64,000 bases of DNA from Fulvivirga sp. M361 (lineage in GTDB: Bacteria > Bacteroidota > Bacteroidia > Cytophagales > Cyclobacteriaceae): positions 1 through 64,000 of the forward strand of contig NZ_VKDC01000005.1 in assembly GCF_007097395.1 (NCBI RefSeq), in the 5' to 3' direction. Position 1 is the stretch's first letter. Each line of letters starts with the position of its first letter. Below, in pieces: positions 12,173 to 62,902 of the stretch. Below the pieces are notes generated by a model that worked only from the letters and a program-made list of their open reading frames with translations, ran no database searches and was not told the origin of the DNA. Made by a program: the position numbers and the translations under genes.

Positions 12173-12190
12173 TGTAGCATAATTTCTACA
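12173..12190. promoter_or_regulatory. TGTAG-N8-CTACA inverted repeat (putative activator site)
   Basis: TGTAG at 12173-12177 and CTACA at 12186-12190 form the same spaced inverted repeat seen upstream of dps. About 63 bp downstream lies a weak -24/-12-like element (TGGATCGATTTTTTAA, 12253-12268) that lacks the usual G of the -12 box. It is the proposed binding site for the window's NtrC-type activator, by analogy with the other sites. Confidence 0.4.
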
Positions 12191-12293
12191 TGTTTTAAGA
12201 AAAGGAATGCTGTAAAGTAGCTTAAACCTCGTCTCGGTGGGTAAAATCAACCTGGATCGATTTTTTAACTAGTGCTTAAGTAAAATAAACACT

Positions 12294-12539
12294 ATGAATA
12301 TGAAGGCTAAAAAATCATGGCTATATAGTATTTACACTTTGATCTTCCTCATCATTCTTTCAGGATGTTTCTCTAACGAAGAAAAAAGTCAAGATGAACC
12401 TCTCACGAAAACGGTCATACCTCAACAGCCGGACCACCTGACCATAACACAGTATGTAAAAGATGGTGTACGTTATGACAATAAGGATACTGTGGTTGCA
12501 AAAGAATTACCGGTGGACACAGCCCTCATTTTAAAATAA
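12294..12539 (+). CDS. Small lipoprotein of unknown function
   Basis: 81 residues with a basic N-terminus, a hydrophobic stretch (LYSIYTLIFLIILSGCF) and a clear lipobox LSGC giving a lipidated cysteine near residue 25. The mature part is short, charged and without a recognised domain (LTITQYVKDGVRYDNKDTVV). It lies 76 bp ahead of the formate/nitrite-type transporter gene and may be co-transcribed. No homologue is recognised. Confidence 0.65.
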   Translation: MNMKAKKSWLYSIYTLIFLIILSGCFSNEEKSQDEPLTKTVIPQQPDHLTITQYVKDGVRYDNKDTVVAKELPVDTALILK

Positions 12540-12615
12540 TGCAACTAAAAGATCAGAAGTGTTGCTTATTGCTCGTCTATTCCCATTAACTTTCATCCAA
12601 CAAACTAATCCATAG

Positions 12616-13434
12616 ATGCTCAATTTCCCCCGTCGAAAAAAAGACGTTAATGTAGCTTCAGACAAACCCAAAGAAGTTCGTCAAATTTTAGATGAGCAAA
12701 TAGAAGCGGGTCTCAATGAATTTAATCGCTCCAATCTGGGCTTGTTTATATCGGCTTTTGCAGCCGGATTGGAAGTAGGCTTTAGTGTTTTATTTATGTG
12801 TACTTTATATAGCCTGTTTGGTGGTACCATTAGCACTGAATCATTACATCTCTATCTCGCTCTGAGCTATCCTATCGGCTTCATTTTCGTAATTATAGGC
12901 CGTTCTGAGCTTTTTACTGAACACACTGCGTTGGCTATATTACCCGTATTGAGTGGATCTGTACGTTTGAAACAGCTATTCAAATTGTGGGGCACGGTTT
13001 ACTCAGGTAATCTTATAGGTGGATACGTCTTTAGTTTCCTTATTTCGGAGATAGGCAATCAGGTTGGTTTTATAGAACCCTCTTCTTATGCTTACCTGGC
13101 CCATCATATGGTAGATTACGACTGGAAAACCATCTTACTGAGCGCACTATTGGCCGGATGGATGATGGGGCTGTTGGGATGGCTGGTAACCTCTGCACAG
13201 GAAACTCTCAGCCGTATTTTTGTAATCATACTTGTCACTTTTATCATTGGCGTGGCAGGCCTGCACCATTGCATTGTAGGTTCAATAGAAGTATTCCTTG
13301 GTGTGATCACAAGTGACGAGATAACGTTTACGGATTATTTGCGTTTCCAGGTTTGGGCTACCATTGGAAATGCCATTGGCGGCGCCGTCTTTGTGGCCAT
13401 TTTAAAATACAGCCACGTTCGTCTGAACAAATAA
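12616..13434 (+). CDS. Formate/nitrite transporter (FNT) family channel
   Basis: 272 residues with about six membrane helices. Typical FNT stretches include LGLFISAFAAGLEVGFSVLFM near the first helix, YPIGFIFVIIGRSELFTEHTALAILPVL with the conserved helix break, LWGTVYSGNLIGGYVFSF, and LHHCIVGSIEVFLGV carrying the central-pore histidine. FNT channels move small monovalent acids such as formate, nitrite or hydrosulfide across the inner membrane. The hydrophilic N-terminal 35 residues are longer than in FocA. The gene converges with trkH, with a 10-bp gap. Confidence 0.88.
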   Translation: MLNFPRRKKDVNVASDKPKEVRQILDEQIEAGLNEFNRSNLGLFISAFAAGLEVGFSVLFMCTLYSLFGGTISTESLHLYLALSYPIGFIFVIIGRSELFTEHTALAILPVLSGSVRLKQLFKLWGTVYSGNLIGGYVFSFLISEIGNQVGFIEPSSYAYLAHHMVDYDWKTILLSALLAGWMMGLLGWLVTSAQETLSRIFVIILVTFIIGVAGLHHCIVGSIEVFLGVITSDEITFTDYLRFQVWATIGNAIGGAVFVAILKYSHVRLNK

Positions 13435-13444
13435 CCTCAGGGTA

Positions 13445-14770
13445 TTATAAAGCTATATTTTCAGGAGGTTTTGTTTTCCCGTAACCTTCTTCCGTATGGA
13501 GTAAACTTAGGCCAAAGGTCAGGGCACCAATACGGCCTAAAAACATGAGCAAGATCACTACCAATTTCCCCATTACAGAAAGATCTCCGGTGATACCGGC
13601 GCTTAAACCCACCGTACCCAGCGCTGAAATAGCTTCAAAAATCAGGTGATATGCGTTACCGGTTTCTGTTAAAAGTAATAGAAAAATACCAACGCCTACA
13701 ATAGCAAAATAAAAAAAGAAATTAGCCACAGCCATCCTGAGTCGTATGATAGGAATGCGTACTCCCATAAATGTAACATCGTTCTGGCCCTTTAATGTGC
13801 AACGCGTGATCGCAAACATCGCTGATATGGTGGTAGATTTAATTCCTCCTCCAGTACCGGCAGGTGAAGCGCCGGATAGCATCAGTATAGTAATAAAAAA
13901 GAGTGAAGCATTGGCCAGTTCGTCTATCGGCACTGTATTAAAACCGACCGTGGTCACTGCTGTCATAGTTTGAAAAAAAGCGAGTAGCCATTGTTGCTGG
14001 GTAGGATAATCGGACCAAGATGACTCTGAGATGAATAGAATGAACGTGGCAATTGTCAATATCCAAAAGGTGAACCGGAAAATGATCTTACTTGTAAACG
14101 TGATCGCTTTTGTGTTTTTAACTATTCTCTTATAAAGGTCCACAAATACAATAAATCCAATACACCCTGCCATAGATAATACAGTTATCGTGGCATTAAA
14201 AGCCAGATTATCTGAATACCGTACAAACCCATTAGTAAATAAGCTAAAACCCGCTGTACAATAAGCCGAGATACTATGAAAAAGGGAAAACCAAACCGGT
14301 TGGTCCAGGCCTGAGCTTTTAAAAATGAAATAGAGTACCAAAGCGCCAAGGACTTCTATGATCAGTGAAAACCAGAATACTATCCTCACAAAACTTCTGA
14401 GGTCATACTTTTCAGAAAGGTCAAACTCCGTTTTTAAGAGCCGTGTATTAAACTCGGAAAGTTTTTTCCTACCTCCTATTACAATAAATGAAGCTATCGA
14501 CATATACCCTATGCCTCCAACCTGCATCATTACCATAATAATGAGCTGGCCAAACCAATTGTAATGATCAACAATACTAAAAGACGTCAGACCCGTTGTG
14601 GAAGTTGCAGACGTCACGATAAATAATGTATCAATTCCTGCCACATTTTCTTTCTGGGTAATGGATAGCGACAACAGGACAGATCCTATCAGCATAATAC
14701 AGAGATACCCCAGGATCAGGATGGTAGAAGGCTGAAAACCCGAAATAGTGTTTTTGACTGCGGCTTTCAT
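13445..14770 (-). CDS. TrkH/KtrB-type potassium uptake membrane protein
   Basis: 441 residues with repeated M1-P-M2 units. Four pore-loop filters are visible: TSATSTTGLTSF, SAYCTAGFSLF, MTAVTTVGFNTV and ISALGTVGLSAG, with the filter glycines intact. The length and GASPAGTGGGIKSTT linker fit KtrB/TrkH. No regulatory KtrA/TrkA (RCK) gene is adjacent, so the gating partner must be elsewhere. The neighbours (FNT channel, antiporter, CorA, MscS) make this a cluster for ion and pH homeostasis. Confidence 0.92.
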   Translation of the reverse strand: MKAAVKNTISGFQPSTILILGYLCIMLIGSVLLSLSITQKENVAGIDTLFIVTSATSTTGLTSFSIVDHYNWFGQLIIMVMMQVGGIGYMSIASFIVIGGRKKLSEFNTRLLKTEFDLSEKYDLRSFVRIVFWFSLIIEVLGALVLYFIFKSSGLDQPVWFSLFHSISAYCTAGFSLFTNGFVRYSDNLAFNATITVLSMAGCIGFIVFVDLYKRIVKNTKAITFTSKIIFRFTFWILTIATFILFISESSWSDYPTQQQWLLAFFQTMTAVTTVGFNTVPIDELANASLFFITILMLSGASPAGTGGGIKSTTISAMFAITRCTLKGQNDVTFMGVRIPIIRLRMAVANFFFYFAIVGVGIFLLLLTETGNAYHLIFEAISALGTVGLSAGITGDLSVMGKLVVILLMFLGRIGALTFGLSLLHTEEGYGKTKPPENIAL

Positions 14771-14943
14771 ATTACGGAACTTATGGTCAGTTTTTCACTG
14801 TTGAAGCAGGTCACAATTTTAATTTCCGTTGCCTTCATAGGTTTGTTTTCTTTGCCTGTATAAAGCGTGTACTGGCTAGTTAAATGTCAGGATCAATCTG
14901 TAGTTTTTGTTATCATATTCCAAACATGGACGTAAAAGAGCTT

Positions 14944-14967
14944 GAATGTAGAGTTTATTCTACATTC
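14944..14967. promoter_or_regulatory. GAATGTAGA-N6-TCTACATTC palindrome upstream of dps (putative activator site)
   Basis: Perfect 9-bp inverted arms at 14944-14952 and 14959-14967. The centre lies about 72 bp upstream of the -24 element of dps. It contains the TGTAG-N8-CTACA core found also at 12173-12190. Distance and symmetry are those expected for an enhancer site of an NtrC-type activator. Confidence 0.6.
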
Positions 14968-15026
14968 TGTTTCCTGATTTACTCATAAACCTTTGTCCGT
15001 TTTCCCATCTTGAACAATGCAAGTAT

Positions 15027-15042
15027 TGGAATGTTTTATGCT
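15027..15042 (+). promoter_or_regulatory. sigma54-type -24/-12 promoter of dps
   Basis: TGGAATGTTTTATGCT has the invariant GG (15028-15029) and GC (15040-15041) exactly ten bases apart, the core of a sigma54 promoter. The predicted transcription start is about 20 bases before the ATG at 15074. A palindromic putative activator site lies upstream at 14944-14967. Confidence 0.6.
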
Positions 15043-15073
15043 TATTCCAAGGTAACTAAAAAGATAATATAAT

Positions 15074-15592
15074 ATGGAAAACGCAACAGTAGAGAAAGCA
15101 ATTGAGAAAAAAACCAAACCGTTTGTTAAACTTGGGTATTCAAAACTGGAAACTGCCGAGTTAGTCACCGTTATGAATGAATTACTGGCTAACTATAGTG
15201 TACATTATCAAAAACTCAGGAATTTTCATTGGAACGTCAAGGGCCCGGATTTTTTCGACATACATGAAAAGTTTGAGGACCAATATAATAAAGCAAAAGT
15301 AGCTATCGATGACATAGCCGAGCGTATCCGGGTGTTTGGTCAAACACCGTTGAGTACTATGAAAGACTACCTGGAAGTAGCTGTTATTAAAGAGTCAGAC
15401 ACTAACCTGCCGGCCATGGATATGGTAGCGGAAATACTAAACGACTACACGATTCTATTAGAACATATGTTTAACACAGTAGAAATGGCTATTGAACATG
15501 GCGACAGTGGCACCGAAGATATGGTGAAAGGTTTTATTAAAGAAATGGAAAAAGACCATTGGATGTTCACAGCCTTTTCTTCCAAGCAATAG
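15074..15592 (+). CDS. dps: Dps family DNA-protection/ferroxidase protein
   Basis: 172 residues, a normal size for Dps. The inter-subunit ferroxidase signature is intact: FHWNVKGPDFFDIHEKFEDQY followed by IDDIAERIRVFG, giving the paired histidines and acidic ligands. Dps dodecamers store iron, consume peroxide and coat DNA in stress. The N-terminal 18 residues are lysine-rich, as in DNA-binding members. It is monocistronic, with its own promoter region and a strong terminator at 15612-15650. The sigma54-type element suggests induction by an activator rather than only by OxyR-type control. Confidence 0.95.
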   Translation: MENATVEKAIEKKTKPFVKLGYSKLETAELVTVMNELLANYSVHYQKLRNFHWNVKGPDFFDIHEKFEDQYNKAKVAIDDIAERIRVFGQTPLSTMKDYLEVAVIKESDTNLPAMDMVAEILNDYTILLEHMFNTVEMAIEHGDSGTEDMVKGFIKEMEKDHWMFTAFSSKQ

Positions 15593-15611
15593 ACCCATTA
15601 GAACATTTGAT

Positions 15612-15650
15612 AAAATCCTTGTAGGCGTCCCTGCAATCTACAAGGATTTT
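15612..15650 (+). terminator. Rho-independent terminator after dps
   Basis: A 13-bp perfect stem, AAAATCCTTGTAG (15612-15624) with CTACAAGGATTTT (15638-15650), is followed by a T-rich tract. Confidence 0.85.
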
Positions 15651-15699
15651 ATTTTTACCTTTATGCTGCTTATATACTTAATACTATTTTTCGCACACT

Positions 15700-16209
15700 G
15701 TGGACATCATTGTTAACTACCTTCAACCACACATTATCCAGTTGTCTATTACCATAGGCCTGGTGTTATTCCTGATATTGGTTCGCTCGCTTACCCTTCG
15801 GCTGGTAAGAAAACATGGGAACAAGAACAGCGTAGCGGTATCACGTGAAGTATACGTTCGAAAACTCATTACCATTACACTTATTTTGCTTTTCGCCACC
15901 TTGATCGGAACGGTTTGGGAAGTATCGGTGAAAGGGTTATCTGTTTATTTTGCCTCCATTTTCACCATCGTAGGTGTGGCATTATTTGCTACCTGGTCTG
16001 TACTCAGTAATATGACCGCTTCCGTTATTTTGTTTTTCTTTTTCCCTTATCGTATTGGAAACACCATCAAAATAATCGACGGTGATAATTCTGTCGAAGG
16101 TATTATTTCAGATATCACCTTATTTTACATTGTAATTACCGACGAAGAAGGCAAGTCATATTCCTATCCTAATAACCTGGTCATTCAAAAACCAGTGAAG
16201 TTCGCATAA
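15700..16209 (+). CDS. Small mechanosensitive channel (MscS-domain) protein
   Basis: 169 residues starting on GTG at 15700; no ATG fits. Three hydrophobic segments (about 12-30, 52-72 and 82-112) are followed by a short MscS-like beta domain: LIRNTIKIID-type strand (YRIGNTIKIIDGDNSVEGIISDI) and SYPNNLVIQKPV, matching the YPNN signature of MscS. It is much shorter than E. coli MscS and lacks the alpha/beta cage, as in other minimal MscS-like proteins of Bacteroidota. It probably releases osmolytes or ions on hypo-osmotic shock. It converges with the antiporter gene, 3 bp away. Confidence 0.8.
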   Translation: MDIIVNYLQPHIIQLSITIGLVLFLILVRSLTLRLVRKHGNKNSVAVSREVYVRKLITITLILLFATLIGTVWEVSVKGLSVYFASIFTIVGVALFATWSVLSNMTASVILFFFFPYRIGNTIKIIDGDNSVEGIISDITLFYIVITDEEGKSYSYPNNLVIQKPVKFA

Positions 16210-16212
16210 GTT

Positions 16213-17394: not shown

Positions 17395-17395
17395 T

Positions 17396-18244: not shown

Positions 18245-18368
18245 ATACGGATGATGGTTTTGGCGGACGGAAAGTTCTTACAGATATCGATTTCATGGAT
18301 TTCTTACAATGTGCTATCTTACCTTTCCAAAGCTTTAATATAGCAATTTCAAATACAAAAAACCCGCT

Positions 18369-19496: not shown

Positions 19497-19592
19497 CATT
19501 TGTCAATATACCGCTGAGTTATACTGATTTCTTTAACACTAGCATTGGATGAGTAAATGAGGTTGGTTATTATATATATGCTGTGGCGTTTG

Positions 19593-19599
19593 TTCTACA
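19593..19599. promoter_or_regulatory. TTCTACA half-site upstream of the Pmp3-lipoprotein gene
   Basis: A single TTCTACA element about 66 bp upstream of the -24 box at 19660-19676. It is the same sequence as the half-sites at 29175-29192 and 14944-14967. Confidence 0.35.
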
Positions 19600-19659
19600 C
19601 TTATTAAAAATAAACCGGGCTAAACATCATGCTGATGGCGCTTCTTCAGGTTGTTTAAG

Positions 19660-19676
19660 TTGGTAGCATATTTGAT
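19660..19676 (+). promoter_or_regulatory. sigma54-like -24/-12 element
   Basis: TTGGTAGCATATTTGAT has TTGG, seven bases, then TTTGAT. It shares spacing and the whole -12 block with the element before the lmo0937-like gene (29287-29303). The ATG at 19716 lies about 40 bases downstream. Confidence 0.5.
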
Positions 19677-19715
19677 AAATGTGTGTTTGTCACACATTTT
19701 AAAATTTTAACTTTT

Positions 19716-20339
19716 ATGCTAAAATCCAATACGCTCGGCAATCTCCTGCTTTTAAGTATCGCATTTATAGTAATGAATGCCTGCTCTCCTGATTATGGCC
19801 GACACTTCCCTTCTTCGGGCAAGTTTTATGAAAGCCATCCGTCACCTATTGACAAGGGTACCACGACTCTGACAGACACCTATGTGGCAATACCTACCCC
19901 AATAGTAACTGAAACCACATCGATAACAGGTAAACCTCGGCCTGAAAACTTGCTCGCAAGCAATGAAGAAAAATCAATACCAACTGTAAGGCCACCGGTG
20001 GCAGAGTTAATAGAGAAACATCGGGTCAGACTAGCGGATATGGAAGTTAAGCTGGCAGATAGCAAGGAAAAAGAGCGGACGATTAAACGTGAAACAAAAC
20101 AAGCCAGGGAAGAAATACGAAAGCAGCTAAAAAAGGACGTCAAGGCACTGAAAAAAGCCAATGAAAGTGATGAATACATTCTGATGATGATACTGGCATT
20201 TATCATACCTCCCCTGGGTGTAGGACTAACATACGGCCTCACAAGTGAATTTTGGATTAGCCTGTTATTAACGATTTTATTCTGGTTACCCGGAGCTATT
20301 TATTCTCTGTTTGTAGTACACCAGCATTATAAAGGGTAA
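19716..20339 (+). CDS. Lipoprotein with C-terminal Pmp3/YqaE membrane domain
   Basis: 207 residues from the ATG at 19716; an ORF extension to 19683 adds only non-signal residues. A lipoprotein signal (LLLLSIAFIVMNACSPDYG, lipidated cysteine about residue 23) is followed by a low-complexity linker, then a charged coiled-coil (about 110-155: LADMEVKLADSKEKERTIKRETKQAREEIRK). A Pmp3/UPF0057 hairpin follows (MILAFIIPPLGVGLTYG, WISLLLTILFWLPGAIYSLFVV). Stand-alone Pmp3 proteins are ~50-residue salt- and stress-induced membrane proteins affecting membrane potential. The lipid anchor plus coiled-coil is an unusual addition. A free-standing Pmp3 gene occurs at 51985. Confidence 0.8.
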   Translation: MLKSNTLGNLLLLSIAFIVMNACSPDYGRHFPSSGKFYESHPSPIDKGTTTLTDTYVAIPTPIVTETTSITGKPRPENLLASNEEKSIPTVRPPVAELIEKHRVRLADMEVKLADSKEKERTIKRETKQAREEIRKQLKKDVKALKKANESDEYILMMILAFIIPPLGVGLTYGLTSEFWISLLLTILFWLPGAIYSLFVVHQHYKG

Positions 20340-20359
20340 TTCAACTATATTTTCCCAAG

Positions 20360-21896: not shown

Positions 21897-21903
21897 TGTA
21901 GAA
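21897..21903. promoter_or_regulatory. TGTAGAA half-site upstream of the DUF1328 gene
   Basis: It is embedded in CTGTAGAATTATTTAC, which closely matches TTGTAGAAGTATTTAC before the OmpA/YiaD gene at 42844 (42703-42718). It is a putative activator site. Confidence 0.35.
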
Positions 21904-22096
21904 TTATTTACCCTATTATGGGGGCTTAGATGCTCATAATATTACGTGTATCGCCGACAGTGGAAGTCGCCTTTTTAACCTGTCATTATTATCGTGGAGT
22001 CCCTTTCTTCGGCGTGCGCCCTGACTGGCGTATATGGCTCCCTGCAACAGAAAGCCGGCTATAAGCCCTTTAGAAGACCGTCTATTGAGTAAATAA

Positions 22097-22527: not shown

Positions 22528-23280
22528 TTAACACAAAAGGAAAGGTAGCTTGACCGTAAACGTAGTTCCTTCACCTTCTTCACTTTCAACGTCTACCTGC
22601 CCGCCTAACTTACCTACGTTCCTTTTGATCAGATACAAACCGAATCCGTGACTGTTATTGCTGTTACTGAAATTCGCCTGGAAAGATCTATTAAAGATAT
22701 TGGGCAGATCTTCTTTTCTTATGCCCAGTCCATTGTCGCTGACGGTTAAGGTAAGAACATTACCTGTTGCATGAACACTTACAATAATAATATTCATTGA
22801 CACTTCAGTACGACGGTACTTTATAGCATTCTCAATTAAGTTATGCAACACAGAGTATAATACGATCGGATCTCCCTGATAATCGTCTTCCTGATTAATA
22901 TTAATAATGAATTTGGTCCTGTCGAAACTGTCTAATGCCGAAAGAGATACTTTAATATCTTTTAGCATAGCATGGAAATCGATTTTTTCATAAGGAGCTG
23001 TGGTCTTGTCCATGGCTGAATTAAGGATTTGATCTACCTTTTTCCCCAAATCATCGCTGGACTGTAGCGCCATATCAATGATATTCAGCAGTTCCGGATC
23101 TAACCCTTTCAACTTGGCCAGTTGCAATAATGCATTGACCCTGCTTAAAGGACTTTTAATATCATGTGCCAATAGATGTATATCATCTGACGGATCATGA
23201 GAACTTTGGTTAGTCGAAGTTAATGGTGTGGTGTATGCTAACATATAGTCATCGTTTTGTACTACTATGTCAATTGCCAT
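22528..23280 (-). CDS. Sensor histidine kinase (HisKA-HATPase, cytosolic)
   Basis: 250 residues from the ATG at 23278-23280; a TTG-initiated extension to 23388 looks unlike any domain. There is no membrane segment. The HisKA domain has H39 in LLAHDIKSPLSRVNALLQLAKL. The ATPase domain has NLIENAIKYR (N box), VSDNGLGIRKEDLPNIF (G1) and GFGLYLIKRNVGKLGG (G2). It is the last gene of the seven-gene signalling operon, about 110 bp after the previous stop. The lack of an input domain suggests it reads the state of another protein of the operon. Confidence 0.9.
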   Translation of the reverse strand: MAIDIVVQNDDYMLAYTTPLTSTNQSSHDPSDDIHLLAHDIKSPLSRVNALLQLAKLKGLDPELLNIIDMALQSSDDLGKKVDQILNSAMDKTTAPYEKIDFHAMLKDIKVSLSALDSFDRTKFIININQEDDYQGDPIVLYSVLHNLIENAIKYRRTEVSMNIIIVSVHATGNVLTLTVSDNGLGIRKEDLPNIFNRSFQANFSNSNNSHGFGLYLIKRNVGKLGGQVDVESEEGEGTTFTVKLPFLLC

Positions 23281-23390
23281 GCCATTTTGATAAACCTTTA
23301 ACCTATAGAACCTTACAATATCAAAAAACTTATGGGTGTGTATTTTTTTTCTCAATCGCAGGAATAAAAATACACTACTGCGATACAACG

Positions 23391-24836
23391 CTATTCCGGG
23401 GGCAGTAAAAATACAAAGCTGGTACCTGTTCCTACCTGACTGGTGGCATGGATTGTTCCGCCATGACTGTTAATGATATTTTGTGCGGAGGTCAAACCCA
23501 GGCCCATTCCACCTTGTTTATTGGTAAAAAACGGATCGAAAAGCGTATGCAGGTGTTCTTCAGGTATTCCACTACCGTTATCGGTGATGGTCAGCTGGAT
23601 CATACCCTTATAAAGCGAACTCTCAACGGTCAGTTCACCTTTACTCTCATCCATGGCCTCCACGGCATTCACCAGCACATTAATGATGGCTATTTTGAGT
23701 TTCTCAGCATCTACCCATACCGGCTCCAAACGCTCGTCATACTGTTTATGTAATTTCATTCCCTTGAGGGTAATACGGTCCCGTATGAGGTTGACTGCGT
23801 CGTCCAGCACTTCATTGATATTATACTTCTCCTTGTGTAACTCTTTCGGTTTGGAGGAGTTAAGCATTTCGGTAATCAGTTGACCAATACGCTTTGCATT
23901 CCTCTCAATGATTCCCATAAACATAGAAATGTCTTTATCACCTTTTGGCAGTTCGTCTTCAAGCTGGTCCAACGCCAAACCCAGGTTGGTAAGAGGATTA
24001 CGTACTTCATGTGCAATACTCCTGGCAATTTTACCGGTCATAGCCAGTTTTTCCGCCATCAGCAACTCCCTTTCAGCTTTTATATGCAAGGTCATATCTC
24101 GTATAATTCCCTGATAACCAATTATTTTTCCACTAAAGTCGGTTCGTACGACCGAAGTTAGCTGGCATGCAAATGGTTGCTGATCATCCGGTTTAAGTGA
24201 TGCCTGAAAATCTTTGACCTGACCATGCTCTTTTAAATCCTCTGAAAATCTTTCAAACTCATCGGCTTTCTCAAAATACTCTTTAAGACTTTTTAAACTT
24301 GTACGCTCTGAAGTGACTCCAAACAATTGACAAAAAGAAAGGTTGACATCCTTAAGTTCGTGATTTAAATCCGATATGTATATGGCATCAATTGAGCGTT
24401 GGAACAGCTGCCGAAATTTGTCCTCCCCTTCTTTCACCATTTGAAGCGCTCTACTGTGCTTGAGGGCATAACGAATACATCGTTCCATCATTTGGGGAGT
24501 CAACTCCGATTTGACAAGAAAATCGGCAGCACCCTGCTCCATGGCCTGTCGGTCTACTTTTCTATTTCCTTTACCCGTAAGCAAAACCATAGGCGCTGAA
24601 ACACCTGCAGCGACCGACTCTTTTATAAGATCTATGCCATCCGCTTCTCCCAACCGATAATCAACAAAATAAATATCATGGTCCTGCTGCTTAATGCGGT
24701 CCAGGGCTGAGGAGAAACTTTTTTGCCATTCCAATTCAAATTCAAACTCTTCAATATCGTCCAAGATGTCCCTGGTGAGCACAAAATCATCTTCATCATC
24801 GTCTACAAGTAATATCTTAATTGATTTATTCACCAT
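23391..24836 (-). CDS. Receiver-PAS-histidine kinase hybrid
   Basis: 481 residues. An N-terminal receiver (1-125; D59 in IYFVDYRLGEADG, VLLTGKGN, FLVKSE) is followed by a PAS domain (about 135-250; FRQLFQRSIDAIYISD, GIIRDMTLHIKAE), then HisKA (SIAHEVRNPLTNLGLALDQLEDEL) and an HATPase (INVLVNAVEAMDES, TDNGSGIPEEHLHTLFDPFFTNKQGGMGLGL). The receiver-first order means the kinase activity can be gated by phosphorylation from another kinase of the cluster. It lies 14 bp after the Rcp1-like receiver gene. Confidence 0.93.
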   Translation of the reverse strand: MVNKSIKILLVDDDEDDFVLTRDILDDIEEFEFELEWQKSFSSALDRIKQQDHDIYFVDYRLGEADGIDLIKESVAAGVSAPMVLLTGKGNRKVDRQAMEQGAADFLVKSELTPQMMERCIRYALKHSRALQMVKEGEDKFRQLFQRSIDAIYISDLNHELKDVNLSFCQLFGVTSERTSLKSLKEYFEKADEFERFSEDLKEHGQVKDFQASLKPDDQQPFACQLTSVVRTDFSGKIIGYQGIIRDMTLHIKAERELLMAEKLAMTGKIARSIAHEVRNPLTNLGLALDQLEDELPKGDKDISMFMGIIERNAKRIGQLITEMLNSSKPKELHKEKYNINEVLDDAVNLIRDRITLKGMKLHKQYDERLEPVWVDAEKLKIAIINVLVNAVEAMDESKGELTVESSLYKGMIQLTITDNGSGIPEEHLHTLFDPFFTNKQGGMGLGLTSAQNIINSHGGTIHATSQVGTGTSFVFLLPPE

Positions 24837-24850: not shown

Positions 24851-25306
24851 TTATTTTTCATAGGACGGTAAAGCCACAATACCAAACCAATACCTACCAA
24901 TCTCCCTGGTCACCTCAATAAGTTCATTAAAGCTCACCGGTTTGGAAATAAAAGAAGAAACCCCTAAATCATAACTCTTTATGATATCCTCTTCTGACTT
25001 ACTTGTAGTTAAAATCACCACCGGGATACGCTTAAGCTCCGGGTCACTTTTTATTTCCTTCAAAGCGGACCGTCCGTCTTTTTTGGGCATATTCAAGTCT
25101 AATAGTATGAGTCCGGGTTTTGGCGCATTGTCTTTATTATACCCTTTTTCATGTCTAAGGTATTGCATGAGTTGTTCACCATCATTGACAAAAACCAAAT
25201 GGTTTGCCATACGATTTTCTTCAAATGCCTCTTTGGCCATTAATTGATCATCAGGGTCATCATCGGCCATTAATATGGTGATAGGTTTTATTACTTGTGC
25301 ATTCAT
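24851..25306 (-). CDS. Stand-alone receiver (Rcp1-like response regulator)
   Basis: 151 residues, receiver only. The acidic triad is in ILMADDDPDDQLMAKEAF, D70 in LILLDLNMPKKDG, T/S in VVILTTSKSEEDI and K in SSFISKPVSF. The longer loop before D70 and the DPDD signature are typical of Rcp1-type receivers that partner phytochrome-like or PAS kinases. The upstream kinase gene ends 3 bp before this start, implying translational coupling and a likely donor-acceptor pair. Confidence 0.92.
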   Translation of the reverse strand: MNAQVIKPITILMADDDPDDQLMAKEAFEENRMANHLVFVNDGEQLMQYLRHEKGYNKDNAPKPGLILLDLNMPKKDGRSALKEIKSDPELKRIPVVILTTSKSEEDIIKSYDLGVSSFISKPVSFNELIEVTREIGRYWFGIVALPSYEK

Positions 25307-25309
25307 TTC

Positions 25310-27106
25310 TTAAACTTTAGGTAAATAAAAAGTGACAGATGCTCCCTGGCCCGGTGTTCCTTCCGCTTCTATACTGCCATTGTGATTAGCCACTATCTTT
25401 TCACATATTGCCAGGCCTATGCCGGTGCCTGAATATTCGGTACGGCCATGTAATCGTTGAAACAGGTCAAAAATTTGTTCTTTGTATTTGGGATCAAAAC
25501 CAATACCGTTGTCACTGATCGTAATTTTATGATATATTGCCTTCACCCCTAAATTAGGTTTTTCTATGGCATCTACAGAAATTATGATCTCAGGTTTTCG
25601 ATCTTTTTTGGCATATTTCAAAGCATTGGAGATCAGATTTTGTAACAATTGAATCAGTTGTATTTCATCCCCCCAAATATGGGGCAACTCGGCCGTATGA
25701 AAGAACGCTTCTTTCTTTTTTATTTCTATCTCCAGGTTATCCAGTGCTTGAAGAAGGACCGCATTAAGGTCCACGTTTTTAAAAGTACGTTCTACTCTTG
25801 AAACACGTGAAAATTCCAGTAGATCATCAATCAATATCTGCATCCTCGAAGCTGCATTTTGCATCCTAACAATATAATCCTTCCCTCTTTCGCCCAGTTC
25901 TGAGCTATACAAAGCAGATAACCGATCTCCGAACGCGCGTACTTTACGTAGTGGTTCCTGTAAATCATGTGATGCGATGTAGGCGAACTGCTCGAGCTCA
26001 AAATTACTGGCCTTTAATTCCTCTTGTTTAGCTATAAGTTTTTTCTCATAACGCTTATTGGTGGTAACATCAGAAAATGTAACTACCAGACCATCCTCGT
26101 TTTTCACGGCACTGACATCGAACCAGGCGTCAATATCATCATAATTGTAATATAATGTTTTATGATAAGCTACTCCGGTTTCCACCACTTTTCTATAGGC
26201 ATCAAAGAGACCTGCATCCCGGGTGCCGGGAACTATGTCCAACAACTTTTTACCTTCAAGATCACGTACATCCTGATTAAATACTTTGGAGCCTTCTTCA
26301 TTGATAAGCTTAAAAACAAAGTTCTCAATACTGCCATTCCCATCCCGAAGTGCATCAAAAGCAATGATACCATGCTGCGAACTTTCAAAAATACTTTTTA
26401 ACAACCTTTCCAATGTAGCCCTCTCATTGATCTCATAATTAAGCTCTTCCACTTTGACAGATTGGTCAAATGCCTTCTTCTTGTTTTGCCGGTATAGGCT
26501 GAATGTATTAATGAATAAAAAACAGATGATGCTCAAAGCGATAATAACCAGAGAAACCAGTGTGACAGGCGCCCACAGCTTTGACTTATTTACTTCCATC
26601 GACCAAGTCAGTAACAATTCGTTTTCATGCTCCCTCATACGTCTCATTTGCGTCACTATATCATCCACGAGGTATTCCTCCGTCAGCAAGACCTCTCTGG
26701 TTCGTTCCGAAAAGGCGTTTTCCACGGCCAACAAGTTCATCAATTCCAGGGCAATGATATTATGCTTTTCTAAAAGCGCCTTAAGTTCATTGAATGAAGC
26801 CTTTCTCGATGGGTCTTCACCAATCAGACTATCTAATTTGTGATTATGTCTTTGTATTCCTGTTTGTAACTGAGTTATTAGTGTCGTGTCACCGGGGCTA
26901 TTGAGTACTACGGCATTTTGAATTTGTCTTGAAAAATTTCTGGGCTGGTCTGTTAAGTTCACCAACTCATTTTTGATATTTTGTATATATCCTATTTTCT
27001 GCGCGTTGACAGAAAAATCCTGTAAAGTATGATATGACACAAACCCCACAATGAGTAAAATAAGTATAGACGTAATGAAGGCAAGCTGAAAAGTTATCCT
27101 GTTCAT
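25310..27106 (-). CDS. Membrane sensor kinase (CHASE3-like, PAS, HisKA, HATPase)
   Basis: 598 residues. TM1 (about 7-25) and TM2 (about 178-200, TLVSLVIIALSIICFLFINTF) bracket a ~150-residue helical periplasmic sensor of CHASE3 type (FSVNAQKIGYIQNIKNELVNLTDQPRNF). PAS about 235-350. The HisKA has FAYIASHDLQEPLRKVRAFGDRL, the H-box style of phytochrome-like kinases. HATPase: NLISNALKYAKK, ISDNGIGFDPKYKEQIFDLFQRLHG and GTGIGLAICEKIV. It is the only membrane-spanning kinase of the operon, so it is the probable entry point for an envelope signal. Confidence 0.93.
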   Translation of the reverse strand: MNRITFQLAFITSILILLIVGFVSYHTLQDFSVNAQKIGYIQNIKNELVNLTDQPRNFSRQIQNAVVLNSPGDTTLITQLQTGIQRHNHKLDSLIGEDPSRKASFNELKALLEKHNIIALELMNLLAVENAFSERTREVLLTEEYLVDDIVTQMRRMREHENELLLTWSMEVNKSKLWAPVTLVSLVIIALSIICFLFINTFSLYRQNKKKAFDQSVKVEELNYEINERATLERLLKSIFESSQHGIIAFDALRDGNGSIENFVFKLINEEGSKVFNQDVRDLEGKKLLDIVPGTRDAGLFDAYRKVVETGVAYHKTLYYNYDDIDAWFDVSAVKNEDGLVVTFSDVTTNKRYEKKLIAKQEELKASNFELEQFAYIASHDLQEPLRKVRAFGDRLSALYSSELGERGKDYIVRMQNAASRMQILIDDLLEFSRVSRVERTFKNVDLNAVLLQALDNLEIEIKKKEAFFHTAELPHIWGDEIQLIQLLQNLISNALKYAKKDRKPEIIISVDAIEKPNLGVKAIYHKITISDNGIGFDPKYKEQIFDLFQRLHGRTEYSGTGIGLAICEKIVANHNGSIEAEGTPGQGASVTFYLPKV

Positions 27107-27117: not shown

Positions 27118-28494
27118 CTAAATACTTATGTCGTAAGCTTTCAGTTTATTGTATAAGGTTTTCCTATCGATGTTCAGCGCTTTGGCTGCTTTTGTCTTAT
27201 TATAGCCTGCTTTTTTAAGCGCATCCAGGATCACCGCTCTCTGTGCATTTTTTGCGGCACCTTTCAGATTTTCATCTCCCTCATTTCTAACTGAGTCAGA
27301 CACCGACATCTGCATGAATTCAGGATGCACTAATTCTTCCGGCAAATGCTCAGGTTTTATCACATCCTGGTCACAAAGTAACACCGCTCTTTTTATTACA
27401 TTTTGTAGTTCCCTTAAGTTTCCATGCCAATAATACGAGGTCAGCTTATCCTGAGTTGCCTTACTAAAAGATTGAACATTTTTGTCCAATGAGTCATTAG
27501 CCACTTTCAAGAAATGTTCTGCAAAAACAAGGACATCCTCCGGGCGCTCTCTTAATGGGCTAAGTTCAATTTTAAACTCGTTCAGTCGATGATAAATATC
27601 TTCTCTGAATTTATGATCGCGTACCGCCTCCCGAAGATTTTCATTAGTAGCGACAATGACACGCACATCAATGGATATATCTTTATTACTTCCCAGTCTT
27701 TTAATTTTTCTTTCCTGTAAAACTCGTAATAATTTTATCTGATTGTCATAAGACAAATTACCGATCTCATCCAAAAATAAAGTGCCGCCATCAGCTACTT
27801 CAAAACTACCTTGTTTATCCGCCAGCGCACCGGTAAAGGCACCTTTCATATGCCCAAATAACTCAGACCCCGCCAGGTCTTTGGGGATGGCCCCACAATC
27901 AATCGCGACAAAAGGTTTGTCGGAACGTTTGCTCTTTTCATGGACTGCCTTGGCTATAAATTCCTTTCCCGTACCTGTTTCACCCATTATGATCACTGAC
28001 ATATCAGTAGGTGCGATCAGGTCCACATGTTTTTGAACCTGTTCAGCCTGAGGACTATGACCGTAGATAAATTTCTTTCTATTTGCCGTGTTTGGCCTTT
28101 TCTTTGTCTCTTTCGATTTGGCGATAATTACCTGCTCCGAATTAATGGCCTCTTTAATTTTCAAAAGAATTTCATCAGGATACAATGGCTTGGTTACGTA
28201 GTCATATGCTCCGTGGCGAAGCGCTTCAACGGCAATTTTAATATCGGAATATCCTGTAATGATAATGACCGCAGTATTGGGATTTAGGATTTTGATCTTA
28301 CGCAAGAGCTCCACACCATTGGCATCCGGAAGCTTATAATCGGACAACACGAGATCATACTGATTCACCTTCAATAATTTTAAGGCTTCATCACCAGTAA
28401 TGGCTGATTCCGCCTCAAAGCCGTTTTTGGTGAGAAATCTTACCAGTAAACGACATATATCCTTGTCATCGTCTATAATCAAAATTTTATTCAT
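27118..28494 (-). CDS. NtrC-family sigma54-dependent response regulator
   Basis: 458 residues from the ATG at 28492-28494; a TTG three codons upstream is less likely. The receiver (1-120) has D8-D10 and phospho-acceptor D52. The AAA+ domain (about 147-375) has Walker A GETGTGKEF, the GAFTGA loop that contacts sigma54 (GHMKGAFTGALADKQG), Walker B GTLFLDEIG and the arginine region FREDIYHRL. A Fis-type helix-turn-helix ends the protein (NKTKAAKALNIDRKTLYNKL). All residues needed for sigma54 activation are present. It is the natural candidate to act on the -24/-12 elements seen before several small stress genes in this window. Confidence 0.96.
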   Translation of the reverse strand: MNKILIIDDDKDICRLLVRFLTKNGFEAESAITGDEALKLLKVNQYDLVLSDYKLPDANGVELLRKIKILNPNTAVIIITGYSDIKIAVEALRHGAYDYVTKPLYPDEILLKIKEAINSEQVIIAKSKETKKRPNTANRKKFIYGHSPQAEQVQKHVDLIAPTDMSVIIMGETGTGKEFIAKAVHEKSKRSDKPFVAIDCGAIPKDLAGSELFGHMKGAFTGALADKQGSFEVADGGTLFLDEIGNLSYDNQIKLLRVLQERKIKRLGSNKDISIDVRVIVATNENLREAVRDHKFREDIYHRLNEFKIELSPLRERPEDVLVFAEHFLKVANDSLDKNVQSFSKATQDKLTSYYWHGNLRELQNVIKRAVLLCDQDVIKPEHLPEELVHPEFMQMSVSDSVRNEGDENLKGAAKNAQRAVILDALKKAGYNKTKAAKALNIDRKTLYNKLKAYDISI

Positions 28495-28514
28495 GCCGCT
28501 CAATTATCGTTAAT

Positions 28515-28874
28515 TTAGATGTCCGTATCCATACTGTCTATTATCTCCTTGATCATTTTCTTGGAAAAAGGCTTTCCCAGAAATTGAAAGACCCCTAATT
28601 CGAAGGCCTTTTTATGCTCTGACTTAGTATCATAGGCACTAATCACCACTATTTTGACATGTTCATTTTTGGCCTTTAAAGTAGGAATGATCTCCAACCC
28701 GTTGCCATCAGGCAGATTGATATCTAAAAACACTATATTATGCTCATCCGGATTGAACATGTTCAATCCTTCGTAAAGCGAATGTGCTTTAAAAGATCTA
28801 ATGCCTAATTTCTCCAATTGATAACTCAGCAACAAACAAATTTCTTTCTCATCGTCCACTATCAAGGCCTTCAT
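28515..28874 (-). CDS. Stand-alone receiver response regulator
   Basis: 119 residues from the ATG at 28872-28874; GTG two codons upstream is possible. CheY-like: D7/D8 (ALIVDDEKE), D51 (IVFLDINLPDGNG), S/T in VVISAYDT and K in LGKPFSKKMI. There is no output domain. It lies about 20 bp before the NtrC-type gene and belongs to the operon. It could be a phosphate relay or sink between the kinases and the activator. Confidence 0.92.
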   Translation of the reverse strand: MKALIVDDEKEICLLLSYQLEKLGIRSFKAHSLYEGLNMFNPDEHNIVFLDINLPDGNGLEIIPTLKAKNEHVKIVVISAYDTKSEHKKAFELGVFQFLGKPFSKKMIKEIIDSMDTDI

Positions 28875-28893
28875 AAACACTGGTTGTTTAGGT

Positions 28894-29082
28894 TTAACGG
28901 ATTATGCGTTTCTTTCTAAGTTTATCATAGCGTTGCATAAATTGGGCAAGCCTTTCATCGTACATCTCGGAATCCACTTTAGTAAAGAAAAGTCCAAACA
29001 ATATTCTTATTGTTAATAGGAAAACCATAAAAACAGTTATGGTGGTCGCACTCATTTTAAGTAAAGTTATTAATAAGTCCAT
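28894..29082 (-). CDS. Small membrane protein heading the signalling operon
   Basis: 62 residues with one membrane helix (about 7-33: LLKMSATTITVFMVFLLTIRILFGLFF), then a basic amphipathic tail (YDERLAQFMQRYDKLRKKRIIR). No family is recognised. It is the first gene of the operon, about 20 bp before the receiver gene, with ATG at 29080-29082. Position suggests a membrane anchor or accessory sensor for the phosphorelay; that is inference only. Confidence 0.7.
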   Translation of the reverse strand: MDLLITLLKMSATTITVFMVFLLTIRILFGLFFTKVDSEMYDERLAQFMQRYDKLRKKRIIR

Positions 29083-29174
29083 GTGTTAATGTTTTACCTC
29101 TATCTATGGCATAATCATGCCAATACCCGTTTGTAGTCTTAAAAGTTACAAGATCTGAAAAAGTGTGGATTTTT

Positions 29175-29192
29175 TTCTACAATAATGTAGAA
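29175..29192. promoter_or_regulatory. TTCTACA-ATAA-TGTAGAA palindrome between the signalling operon and lmo0937-like gene
   Basis: A perfect 7-bp inverted repeat with a four-base centre, preceded by a T-run. It is 105 bp upstream of the -24 element of the plus-strand micro-gene and about 90 bp from the operon's first start codon, so it could serve both. It is the clearest example of the TTCTACA element in the window. Confidence 0.6.
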
Positions 29193-29286: not shown

Positions 29287-29303
29287 TTGGAGACTTCTTT
29301 GAT
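29287..29303 (+). promoter_or_regulatory. sigma54-like -24/-12 element of the lmo0937-like gene
   Basis: TTGGAGACTTCTTTGAT has TTGG, seven bases, then TTTGAT, identical in layout to 19660-19676. The start codon is at 29330. Confidence 0.5.
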
Positions 29304-29329: not shown

Positions 29330-29482
29330 ATGAGCAATTTACTTTACTTGATCGCAGTAATATTAGTTATTGGCTGGTTACTTGGTTTCTTCTATTTCAG
29401 TGTGGGTGGAATTATACACGTGTTGTTGGTTATCGCTGTTATCGCTATCTTATTTCGCTTGATAAGTGGTAGAAAGATTTAG
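29330..29482 (+). CDS. lmo0937-like membrane micro-protein
   Basis: 50 residues: MSNLLYLIAVILVIGWLLGF followed by FYFSVGGIIHVLLVIAVIAIL and a short basic tail. Two membrane helices around a conserved GGxxH turn match the lmo0937 family of ~50-residue membrane peptides. The gene is divergent from the signalling operon, has its own terminator, and carries both the palindrome and a -24/-12-like element. It is a likely stress-induced envelope peptide; its biochemical role is unknown. Confidence 0.85.
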   Translation: MSNLLYLIAVILVIGWLLGFFYFSVGGIIHVLLVIAVIAILFRLISGRKI

Positions 29483-35315: not shown

Positions 35316-35507
35316 GTGGTTATAAATAAAACTAAGAGCTGTAAGGAAAAAATCGATCCAAATCGAAAGTATTCTCAATTTGAGTATTCAGAGCATTTTC
35401 CATCAGGCAAGCCTGAGATTGTGGGGAATATTTTCTACACTTTTTATTATACAACTGTTGCTTTCCATTGTTGCTATGCTTGTTAGCTGGTTTTTTCCTC
35501 TGGCACA

Positions 35508-42703: not shown

Positions 42704-42710
42704 TGTAGAA
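42704..42710. promoter_or_regulatory. TGTAGAA site upstream of the OmpA/YiaD operon
   Basis: It reads TTTCTA-AT-TGTAGAA, a shortened version of the 29175 palindrome, directly after the TamL stop codon. It lies 89 bp upstream of the -24 element at 42795. Confidence 0.35.
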
Positions 42711-42794
42711 GTATTTACACACAACGAGGTCGTTAGTCGCCTGTTATTGATGAATACGGGTCCCTGTATCTTTCTTTACCTCCATTTTGTCGAA

Positions 42795-42810
42795 TGGCAT
42801 CTCATTTGTC
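42795..42810 (+). promoter_or_regulatory. sigma54-like -24/-12 element of the OmpA/YiaD operon
   Basis: TGGCATCTCATTTGTC: TGGCA as -24 and TTTG as -12, with the same spacing as the dps and micro-gene elements. The first codon of the operon is at 42844. Confidence 0.5.
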
Positions 42811-42843: not shown

Positions 42844-43512
42844 ATGAAATCTACATTATATAAAAAATTACTACTCTGCTCACTCGTTGCATTCTCATTA
42901 ATAGGATGTAATGCTACTAAAACACAAAAAGGTGCCGCCGTCGGTAGTGGTGGCGGCGCTGTCATTGGCGGGTTGATCGGCAAAGCAGCGGGAAATACCG
43001 CCGCAGGCGCCATTATAGGGGCAGCTGTTGGGGGTACGGCCGGAGCATTGATCGGAAGAAAAATGGATAAACAGGCCGAAGAGCTTAGGCGTGACCTGGA
43101 AGGAGCTGAAATTGAAAGAATTGGTGAAGGGATAAAAATCACCTTTGACTCAGGGCTTATGTTTGGTTTGGATTCTTATGATCTAACCAGCACCACCAGG
43201 CAAAACCTGAATGAGCTCTCCACCATACTTCAAAAATATGAGGATACGGAAATTCTTATAGAAGGTCATACAGACGCTACCGGTTCTGACAAATACAATC
43301 AGCGTCTATCAAAACGACGTGCACAAGCGGTAAAAACACATCTGACCAGCCATAATGTTGCCACAGAACGAATGACTGTGATCGGCTATGGAGAAGACCA
43401 GCCTGTTGCTGACAATGGAAGCGACTATGGAAGGCAAAAAAACCGACGTGTAGAGTTAGCCATCTATGCAAATGATAAGATGAAAAAAGCGGCTGAAAAA
43501 GGTGATCTATAA
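42844..43512 (+). CDS. OmpA-family lipoprotein with glycine-zipper (YiaD-like)
   Basis: 222 residues from the ATG at 42844; the extension to 42787 runs through the promoter element. Lipoprotein signal LLLCSLVAFSLIGCNATK. Glycine-zipper region about 30-75 (GAAVGSGGGAVIGGLIGKAAGNT, IIGAAVGGTAGALIGRKMD), as in membrane-inserting stress lipoproteins. The OmpA peptidoglycan-binding domain runs about 100-205 (FDSGLMFGLDSYDLT, ILIEGHTDATGSDKYNQRLSKRRAQAVKTHL, VIGYGEDQPVADN, NRRVELAI), with the D and R that hold diaminopimelate. It heads a run of seven plus-strand genes. Confidence 0.93.
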   Translation: MKSTLYKKLLLCSLVAFSLIGCNATKTQKGAAVGSGGGAVIGGLIGKAAGNTAAGAIIGAAVGGTAGALIGRKMDKQAEELRRDLEGAEIERIGEGIKITFDSGLMFGLDSYDLTSTTRQNLNELSTILQKYEDTEILIEGHTDATGSDKYNQRLSKRRAQAVKTHLTSHNVATERMTVIGYGEDQPVADNGSDYGRQKNRRVELAIYANDKMKKAAEKGDL

Positions 43513-60974: not shown

Positions 60975-61371
60975 ATATTATACCTTCACCCGGGTTTTTC
61001 CTTCATTTGTCCTATTACTTAATACATCAAATTCTATTATTTTCTTACCCGCTTTAACGTATTCAGCAGGTACCTAGAAAATAATTTGATCATTACAGAA
61101 GTTGACATTTTTACGGCACTATTTCCTGTTGCTTTCGTTTTAAGTTGCGCATGATAATTTTATAACTGACCGTCTCGGGCACCTTCAATAACTAACGTTG
61201 AGTTACTGTGCCAAAGTTCCACGCAAAGTGGTGTTAATTCCACAATTCATAACTTATTGATAGGTAACGATTCTAAAAAAACTGCTCTTATGCTCAAATT
61301 TCAATGATCATTTCAAATCCATTCAATTGGCACAATTTGAGCATATACTTTTTGAGCTAACCCTTAATCCT
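60975..61371. promoter_or_regulatory. Long gene-free leader of the DUF2267 gene with an 11-bp inverted repeat
   Basis: No gene fits. ATGCTCAAATT (61290-61300) and AATTTGAGCAT (61334-61344) are perfect inverted arms 33 bp apart; the right arm covers the -12 part of the sigma54-type element at 61328-61343. Binding of a protein to, or pairing of, the arms would mask the promoter. Confidence 0.45.
61328..61343 (+). promoter_or_regulatory. sigma54-type -24/-12 promoter of the DUF2267 gene
   Basis: TGGCACAATTTGAGCA: GG (61329-61330), ten bases, then GC (61341-61342), and TGGCAC matches the -24 consensus. It lies 30 bp before the ATG at 61372. No TTCTACA site was found upstream of this one. Confidence 0.6.
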
Positions 61372-62242: not shown

Positions 62243-62262
62243 CGTTTAGCTATCTTATAATA

Positions 62263-62643
62263 TCAGTCAGACGGCCAACGATAAATGTTCGTAACAGCAA
62301 GGTTAATTAGGAATACGTGTTTGTCCGTCTCTTTGGTCTCGAACCAGTTTCCGTTGTTTTCATTCCAGAGTTTAGCAGCCAGCTCATCATCTTCTTCCAC
62401 TGATGCTTCCCCGGAAACCGCCAGAAAAAGTTCCTGTTCTGTATCTTGTACGGTAAGAACGAGGTTAGGTCTCCGCTCTAACTCACTCGCTATAACATTT
62501 TCCAGATAAGTAAATAACCTGATCTCTGAAGCCGATACGGATTGTATCATGGCTACACCCATGGTAAGACTGCCATCATCCGCCAGGTAGGTGATCATAC
62601 CCATTTTGGACATGACCAATTGGATCCTTAATTCTTCATTCAT
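62263..62643 (-). CDS. Pyridoxamine-5'-phosphate-oxidase-like general stress protein
   Basis: 126 residues from the ATG at 62641-62643; the extension to 62742 crosses a promoter-like element. The split-barrel FMN-binding pattern is MGMITYLADDGSLTMGVAMIQSV, IRLFTYLENVIASELERRPNLVLTVQDTEQELFLAVSGEASV and AKLWNENNGNWFE. It belongs to the general-stress-protein PNPOx-like group, which bind flavin and rarely oxidise PNP. It is divergent from the L,D-transpeptidase gene across a 259-bp region with a shared palindrome. Confidence 0.85.
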   Translation of the reverse strand: MNEELRIQLVMSKMGMITYLADDGSLTMGVAMIQSVSASEIRLFTYLENVIASELERRPNLVLTVQDTEQELFLAVSGEASVEEDDELAAKLWNENNGNWFETKETDKHVFLINLAVTNIYRWPSD

Positions 62644-62669
62644 AGTACCTAATTTAATAATGTAGGTAA

Positions 62670-62685
62670 TGTTAAAATCGTGCCA
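62670..62685 (-). promoter_or_regulatory. Possible -24/-12 element of the PNPOx-like gene
   Basis: The minus strand reads TGGCACGATTTTAACA. The -24 block TGGCACG is a full match to the sigma54 consensus, while the -12 block is TAACA instead of TTGCA. It lies 27 bp before the start codon. Confidence 0.4.
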
Positions 62686-62801
62686 TAGCCTGTTTTTTTT
62701 TCTACTATAAGAGACAGGTATGTGAAAGTATAACCTATCCATGCCATCACGAAACAGGATAGAATGTTATGGAAAATAACACTACAAGTTGAGTATTTTT
62801 T

Positions 62802-62819
62802 TCTACGTGGCGACGTAGA
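62802..62819. promoter_or_regulatory. TCTACGT-GGCG-ACGTAGA palindrome in a divergent promoter region
   Basis: Perfect 7-bp arms preceded by a T-run, exactly as at 29175-29192 but with G/C in the centre. It is 126 bp from the -24 element of the PNPOx gene and about 50 bp from a weak one (TTGGTACTTTATTTTCT, 62858-62874) before the L,D-transpeptidase, so one site could control both genes. Confidence 0.5.
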
Positions 62820-62902
62820 TCATTAAGGCAAATCACTGTATTATCCTTCATTTATCATTGGTACTTTATTTTCTTAAGGAAACTAAACCCCACATATTAA
62901 CC

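Follow-up and report, generated by a model that had tools for sequence, protein, structure and literature searches.

A candidate phosphorelay-controlled sigma54 regulon of stress and envelope genes, with a shared operator dyad, in Fulvivirga sp. M361

In Fulvivirga sp. M361 (genome of 8.13 Mb in 148 contigs), the first 64,000 nucleotides of contig NZ_VKDC01000005.1 (C94:1-64000, hereafter the window) carry several short genes of stress and envelope families on both sides of an operon for kinases, receivers and an NtrC-type activator (22528-29082), which raises the question of whether these scattered genes answer to one switch. An earlier note, made from the sequence alone, had proposed that they form a coherent regulon with sigma54-type -24/-12 boxes, controlled through an upstream TTCTACA/TGTAGAA element by the activator of the kinase operon. 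The present analysis supports that proposal. Judged from the sequence, it is highly probable that the operon runs a phosphorelay-driven, autoregulated sigma54 regulon of stress and envelope genes, and the following evidence concerns the position, clustering and conservation of the operator, its association with the activator, and the orientation of the boxes.

In order to define the operator, a comparison with dps in two relatives (G013 and G012) was made, which fixed the unit as an 18-bp dyad, TGTRGA-N6-TCYACA; all mismatches given below are counted against this sequence. The TTCTACA element itself is real, and all seven copies noted earlier are present to within a base or two, but the one at 62802 reads TTCTACG/CGTAGA, and the palindrome taken as a unit at 29175-29192 is the right half of a dyad starting at 29164 together with an extra half-site. 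Three other arrangements were rejected. The arrangement of the earlier note, written as TTCYACA-N2-6-TGTRGAA, occurs at three places in the genome, of which the window contains one, against none backward, and is not kept in relatives; TGTAGA-N6-TTCTACA, which has one base too many, is at chance level in the window with up to three mismatches (22 against 21.4); and TGTAGA-N4-8-TCTACA occurs at seven places in the genome, against four backward.

The exact dyad was found at eight places in the genome (C94:14947, 29164, 65603, 76000, 85171, 101038 and 322640, and C60:47759), six of which are clustered in C94:14947-101055 (p about 1e-10). The two exact copies in the window are the operator of dps (14947..14964) and the operator TGTGGATTTTTTTCTACA (29164..29181), located between the lmo0937-like gene on the forward strand and the kinase operon on the reverse strand. 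When one mismatch was allowed, 50 of 61 places were analysed for position, the other 11 being on later contigs. Within C94:12-104 kb, 11 of 13 places are intergenic, whereas elsewhere only three of 37 are (C60:47759, C66:16290 and C94:298843; Fisher p 8e-7, run with 36 instead of 37 places elsewhere). The same bias can be observed for the short element in the window, since 10 of its 12 copies are intergenic although open reading frames (ORFs) of at least 80 aa cover 88% of the sequence (p 3e-8).

The conservation of the operator in relatives, which the earlier note had named as a check, was confirmed: the dyad precedes orthologues of the YiaD/OmpA, lmo0937-like, Dps and formate/nitrite channel (FNT) genes at other genome places, and it recurs in the same position upstream of the lmo0937-like gene, divergent from the regulator operon. 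Orthologues of the regulator, 59-69% identical, were found in 14 of the 57 relatives searched, and the closest ones in named genomes belong to Fulvivirga, Chryseolinea, Marinoscillum and metagenome-assembled genomes of the Cyclobacteriaceae; cultivable carriers of the system include Fulvivirga aurantia and Chryseolinea serpens. The 14 relatives with an orthologue contain 31 exact sites (19 backward), and 16 relatives without one contain 17 (21 backward). For nine of the 31, found in eight of the 14 genomes, the regulator is at most 15 kb away (p 2e-14, ignoring kinship). Additionally, the regions around 11 orthologues in named genomes (204 kb in total; three of these genomes were already counted above) hold six exact sites and 17 with at most one mismatch, with none backward; 13 gammaproteobacterial loci around regulator relatives of 37-43% identity hold no exact site and two with at most one mismatch, and 21 further loci hold none and two, respectively, with two backward matches.

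The operator and the regulator also occur together at individual target genes. An ompA operator with at most two mismatches is present in nine of 13 regulator-positive genomes (Fulvivirga sp. M361 included) and in one of 14 regulator-negative genomes, and this one (G045) has a regulator relative of 52% identity. Sites with at most one mismatch precede dps in six of 11 scanned regulator-positive genomes (G000, G004, G007, G012, G013 and G014) and in none of six regulator-negative ones (G015, G017, G020, G032, G035 and G044). Nineteen of the 48 exact sites in the 30 relatives were fetched with 4 kb around them; ten precede recognisable genes, and for another three, which are intergenic, no target is evident. 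The recognisable genes are YiaD-OmpA orthologues (G001, G004, G006, G007 and G014) and five others of stress or envelope type, named by eye, those for an FNT-type channel and an HD-phosphohydrolase (both G005), UspA (G001), a lipoprotein (G011) and a DUF2383-like protein (G026).

A further line of evidence is the orientation of the boxes. We examined 64 distinct intergenic sites with no or one mismatch for boxes within 150 bp, and kept 17 in-gene sites separate. At the intergenic operators, 35 TGGYA-N6-TT boxes (34 distinct) point away from the dyad and none toward it; the in-gene sites gave two and none. Without the 12 ompA and lmo0937 sites the count is still 22 away and none toward, where the intergenic rate predicts about 4.5 each way. 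The bias depends on the internal spacing, with 35:0 for N5, 35:0 for N6 and 8:2 for N7, and a looser pattern, TGGHN-N6-TTK, gave 38 away against eight toward at intergenic sites and four against seven inside genes. The distance from operator to box is 39-114 bp, and 43-76 bp for 29 of the 34 boxes; it is phased with a period of about 11 bp (p 0.0002, a value weakened by shared ancestry). A T run before the -12 position is also present. In front of the lmo0937-like gene, a TGGCAY box with a T run was seen by eye in eight of 13 printed loci, and no such box was seen in L066, L067, L068 and L070; the pattern used to anchor these genes caught five of ten relatives, the others being read by eye. 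An argument for autoregulation comes from four loci (L063, L064, L147 and L148), in which the operator adjoining the regulator operon has boxes to its left and to its right.

The operon at 22528-29082, entirely on the reverse strand, contains the predicted activator at 27118..28503. Its translation has a receiver domain (REC, PF00072), an AAA+ domain (PF00158, 231.6 bits) with the GAFTGA motif, and a Fis-type helix-turn-helix (HTH_8, PF02954, 45.4 bits) with the recognition helix LNIDRKTLYNKLK. No other protein among the seven of the operon that were scanned has a DNA-binding domain. The remaining six comprise three kinases, namely a HisKA-HATPase protein (22528..23388), a REC-PAS-HisKA-HATPase protein (23391..24836) and a membrane sensor kinase with two hydrophobic stretches, PAS_4, HisKA and HATPase domains (25310..27106); two stand-alone receivers (24851..25306 and 28515..28880); and a 62-aa protein encoded by the first gene (28894..29082), with one hydrophobic stretch by hydropathy and no Pfam match. 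Up to 20 kb was fetched around each orthologue of the activator (7.9 kb in G005), and in these loci the activator is still accompanied by some of the kinase operon genes: orthologues of the 24851..25306 receiver, 56-71% identical, are near the activator in nine of 14 fetched loci, and relatives of the other receiver adjoin it. The genome has one rpoN gene (a single Sigma54_DBD match, 188 bits).

The association was also approached from the pattern alone. A composite of the operator, 45-75 bp and TGGYA-N6-TT was searched in 390 genomes of the order, and matched 17 places in 16 genomes, against five backward. The matches in two of these genomes (G004 and G007) are the ompA sites already mentioned. 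Of the other 14, four were picked for an intergenic and plausible layout and searched for the regulator, and a relative was found near the match in three: 62% identical at 2.2 kb (G153), and 51% identical at 3.5 kb in both G386 and G405. In the fourth (G336) the relative lies 193 kb away. G003 and G008 gave no match to the regulator at E 1e-100. An ORF that looks CsbD-like by eye follows the match in G153. The remaining ten genomes have 11 composite places, five inside genes, five intergenic and one unclassified.

G405 and G386 belong to one genus, in another family. In both (L271:1501-1660 on G405:C14 and L272:1501-1660 on G386:C6), one or more operators and a TTGGCACGAA box are followed by no obvious ORF, and a short conserved stretch after the box has at its end a hairpin of 12 bp with a T run (z -5.1 and -3.8, respectively). 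This stretch, located 3.5 kb from the relative of the regulator, is a candidate for a small RNA driven by sigma54. Its core was found in these two of the 390 genomes, and a search of Rfam gave no match up to E 1.

Taken together, these features suggest the following scheme. A signal would be relayed by the kinases and the pair of lone receivers to the NtrC-type regulator, an order that we infer from the regulator being the only DNA-binding protein of an operon otherwise made of kinases and receivers. The phosphorylated regulator would bind the dyad as an enhancer, in most cases at a distance of 43-76 bp from a TGGYAY-N5-TT box downstream, and the AAA+ domain of the regulator would open the RNA polymerase held at the box by sigma54. 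Predicted targets include Dps and a set of small proteins of the membrane and envelope (lmo0937/DUF5670, YiaD-OmpA, the Pmp3 protein, YtxH and PRC-barrel proteins), with the formate/nitrite channel, the DUF2267 protein and the L,D-transpeptidase-type (LDT) protein as probable further ones. The operator that separates lmo0937 from the kinase operon may drive both, and thereby the regulator's own synthesis.

A number of results weigh against this reading, and they bear on three other explanations. The first is that the dyad is real but serves chiefly a different activator of this type, for example the C89 paralogue, the window regulator being one of several inputs. As the earlier note says, the operon holds the sole GAFTGA activator of the window; the genome has 12 strong sigma54 activators, this one included, with matches that exceed 220 bits (19 in all over the cut-off). 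Moreover, its recognition helix is nearly the same in paralogues, including that at C89:38707-40044, which is 51% identical (LNIDRKTLYNKLK versus LNIDRKTLYKKLK). Cross-talk between the window regulator and its paralogues is possible for these reasons. Also against the main reading, the operator is missing from some genomes that have the regulator: with up to two mismatches before ompA in G013, G026, G029 and G033, and with up to one before dps in G001, G002, G006, G029 and G033. Nevertheless, the exact operators adjoin the window regulator and its orthologues, no dyad within one mismatch was found in the 20 kb fetched around the C89 paralogue, and G010 and G023, which have only relatives of 48-51% identity, lack an ompA site within two mismatches. 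We thus consider that control mainly by another activator is unlikely.

The second explanation is that the dyad is an ordinary repressor or activator site used with a housekeeping sigma factor, and that the TGGYA boxes have another nature. The layout of CRP/FNR-type dyads, TGTGA-N6-TCACA, resembles that of the operator. The -12 GC of sigma54 promoters is not conserved here: G is found in 28% and C in 29% of 68 oriented TGGYA matches, and in 13 and 12 of the 32 boxes with TT, respectively. The strict box is absent at 35 of the 64 intergenic operators (present at 29). The five TGG-N8 boxes proposed earlier do exist, to within a base or two, but their -12 parts are uneven and degenerate. A box matrix trained on the ompA and lmo0937 boxes of the relatives was applied to 19 upstream regions of Fulvivirga sp. 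M361 (some with weak operators, those of M48, PepSY, DUF1328, LDT and DUF2267, having been added by eye) and to 99 control upstream regions. The separation was moderate, with eight of 19 regions at 6 bits or more against 8% of the controls; the dps, Pmp3, OmpA and DUF2267 regions exceed the 90th percentile of the controls and the lmo0937 region does not, and no better score than that of the controls was obtained for the regions of lmo0937, PRC, the right-hand YtxH, GH3 and APP1. The degenerate -12 GC and the uneven boxes are the main weakness of the sigma54 reading; they lower the claim of canonical promoters, not that of the layout. A cross-phylum survey notes that there are real sigma54 promoters far from the consensus, as the present ones are, and that its matrices can detect these only to a limited extent (PMC12316311). 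Against a housekeeping sigma factor stand the 35:0 orientation of the boxes, their fixed internal spacing and enhancer-like distance, and the fact that an NtrC-type regulator is the one DNA-binding protein in the operon, so that we regard this explanation as very improbable.

Finally, the motifs could coincide by chance in AT-rich intergenic DNA. In the window, TTCTACA (12 copies, 10.05 expected from shuffling) and TGG-N8-TTGNT (13, 13.1 expected) are not enriched, the dyad with at most one mismatch has 61 places in the genome against 84 in the backward control, and exact-site totals per relative are little above the backward control. Six of the 19 fetched exact sites are inside genes, the UspA site in G001 is also within a predicted 109-aa ORF, and related genomes entered the Fisher and binomial tests as if they were independent, which makes the p values optimistic. 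The raw counts are hence those expected by chance, and since the dyad count is below its control it is no evidence in itself; the evidence is in the positions, which are strongly intergenic. Given these positions, the clustering, the conservation before orthologues, the orientation and the pattern-first result, coincidence is scarcely credible.

The proposed sigma54 regulon under a two-component regulator is of a known kind. It shares with the NtrC/AtoC/ZraR class the REC, AAA+ (GAFTGA) and Fis-type HTH domains, kinases in the operon, and a dyad upstream of -24/-12-type boxes; it differs in its operator, its targets and the two lone receivers, and the regulator scores far below the NCBIfam cut-offs (AtoC, 429.5 versus 714; NtrC, 404.6 versus 558.6; ZraR, 371.2 versus 760), being below the curated cut-off for the 25 models listed of 118. 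General stress regulons, such as those of SigB in Bacillus and EcfG/PhyR in alphaproteobacteria, have resembling targets, among them Dps, CsbD- and YtxH-like proteins, PRC-barrel proteins and small membrane proteins; these systems use an alternative sigma70-class factor, whereas the switch proposed here is sigma54 with an NtrC-type regulator. Sigma54 has been described as a controller of the bacterial exterior, and the control of envelope genes is common to that account and the system here (PMC3162934). The 2025 survey predicts sigma54 promoters in Bacteroidota (PMC12316311). Term searches of the two papers gave no Dps or OmpA in the survey (PMC12316311) and no OmpA or Bacteroidetes in the 2011 paper (PMC3162934), and among titles and abstract beginnings of the open-licence literature no counterpart regulon or operator was found described, which applies to the operator, the target set and the relaxed -12 alike.

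The analysis yields a concrete and falsifiable list of operator, regulator and targets for stress and envelope control in this group, and it ties families of unknown function (lmo0937/DUF5670, DUF2267, DUF1328 and YtxH) to one switch. A further suggestion is that promoters in this group would escape sigma54 scans relying on a canonical -12 GC. The families of the target genes suggest a stress response, possibly a general one, which would be the interesting part. We put forward tentatively, as a broader reading that could well prove wrong, that the general or envelope stress response of the Cytophagales depends on sigma54 and a phosphorelay-controlled NtrC-type regulator in the role of SigB, RpoS or EcfG, with relaxed -12 boxes, a regulated small RNA in some species and, in Fulvivirga sp. 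M361, a regulon island of about 90 kb around the regulator.

The individual targets in the window differ in the quality of their sites. The Dps-type ferritin gene (15074..15592, forward strand; PF00210, with Dps-named NCBIfam models below cut-off) has the candidate box TGGAATGTTTTATGCT at 15027..15042 on the same strand, of the form GG-N10-GC, scoring 6.9 bits and located 47 bp before the ATG. The lmo0937/DUF5670 small membrane protein gene (29330..29482, forward; PF18919, and NF033488 above cut-off) has a weak candidate box, TGGAGACTTCTTTGAT (29288..29303, forward; -1.2 bits for its region), and the kinase operon a weak divergent candidate, TGGCATGATTATGCCA (29107..29122, reverse; GG-N9-GC, 1.1 bits). 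Dyads with one mismatch precede four further genes. The gene for a protein with a C-terminal Pmp3 domain (19719..20339, forward; PF01679) has its operator-like dyad at 19582..19599 and the candidate box TGGTAGCATATTTGAT at 19661..19676 (forward, 7.4 bits). The YiaD family glycine-zipper/OmpA lipoprotein gene (42847..43512, forward; NF053611 above cut-off) has the operator TGTAGAAGTATTTACACA at 42704..42721 and the box TGGCATCTCATTTGTC at 42795..42810 (forward, 8.4 bits), which aligns with TGGTAYTYATTTTGGT-like boxes in eight relatives; the second OmpA copy of the genome, on C138, lacks a dyad within one mismatch. The dyad at 35422..35439 precedes a TamB-like gene (35508-40433), whose box TGGCACAATGTTTATC overlaps the listed start codon, and that at 12173..12190 precedes the gene for an 81-aa protein (12294-12539) with the FNT channel gene (12616-13434) behind it; no convincing box was found in this last region (2.4 bits).

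Weaker operator-like sites were found before three genes. The DUF2267 gene (PF10025; ATG at about 61372) has a site with two mismatches at 61227..61244 and the candidate box TGGCACAATTTGAGCA at 61328..61343 (forward; GG-N10-GC, 7.7 bits). The DUF1328/UPF0391-type gene (21630-21791, reverse; PRK13682 models above cut-off) has a site with three mismatches at 21897..21914 and a box of 3.7 bits. The gene for the L,D-transpeptidase-type scaffold domain (62903-63643; PF20142) is preceded by a site with three mismatches at 62790..62807, with a further half-site CGTAGA, and by the box TGGTACTTTATTTTCT (62859..62874, forward), which at 17.0 bits is the highest of the 19 regions, the maximum among the controls being 12.3. 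Beyond the window, intergenic sites precede a PRC-barrel gene, two divergent YtxH genes and the gene for a 51-aa protein, and more distant ones precede APP1- and GH3-type genes.

The surroundings of these sites, both in the window (12294-21792) and in C94:64-101 kb, are rich in ion-homeostasis and stress genes. The former stretch holds genes for FNT, TrkH, Dps, an MscS-like protein, a Na/H exchanger, Usp, CorA, Pmp3, LpxR and the DUF1328-type protein, and the PRC-barrel gene and the YtxH pair lie in the latter. In G013, dps, TrkH and FNT genes and an OmpA-like gene (27% identical) are located beside the regulator. In a genome of another family (L273 1501-1586, G327), an intergenic composite match has an OmpA-like glycine-zipper ORF that starts about 210 bp away on its other side. 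Finally, the PF20142 ORF ending at 63643 is followed by an ORF at C94:63754-64632 that appears by eye to be peptidoglycan-binding-like, and the L,D-transpeptidase-like locus may be split, either by a frameshift or as a true gene split.

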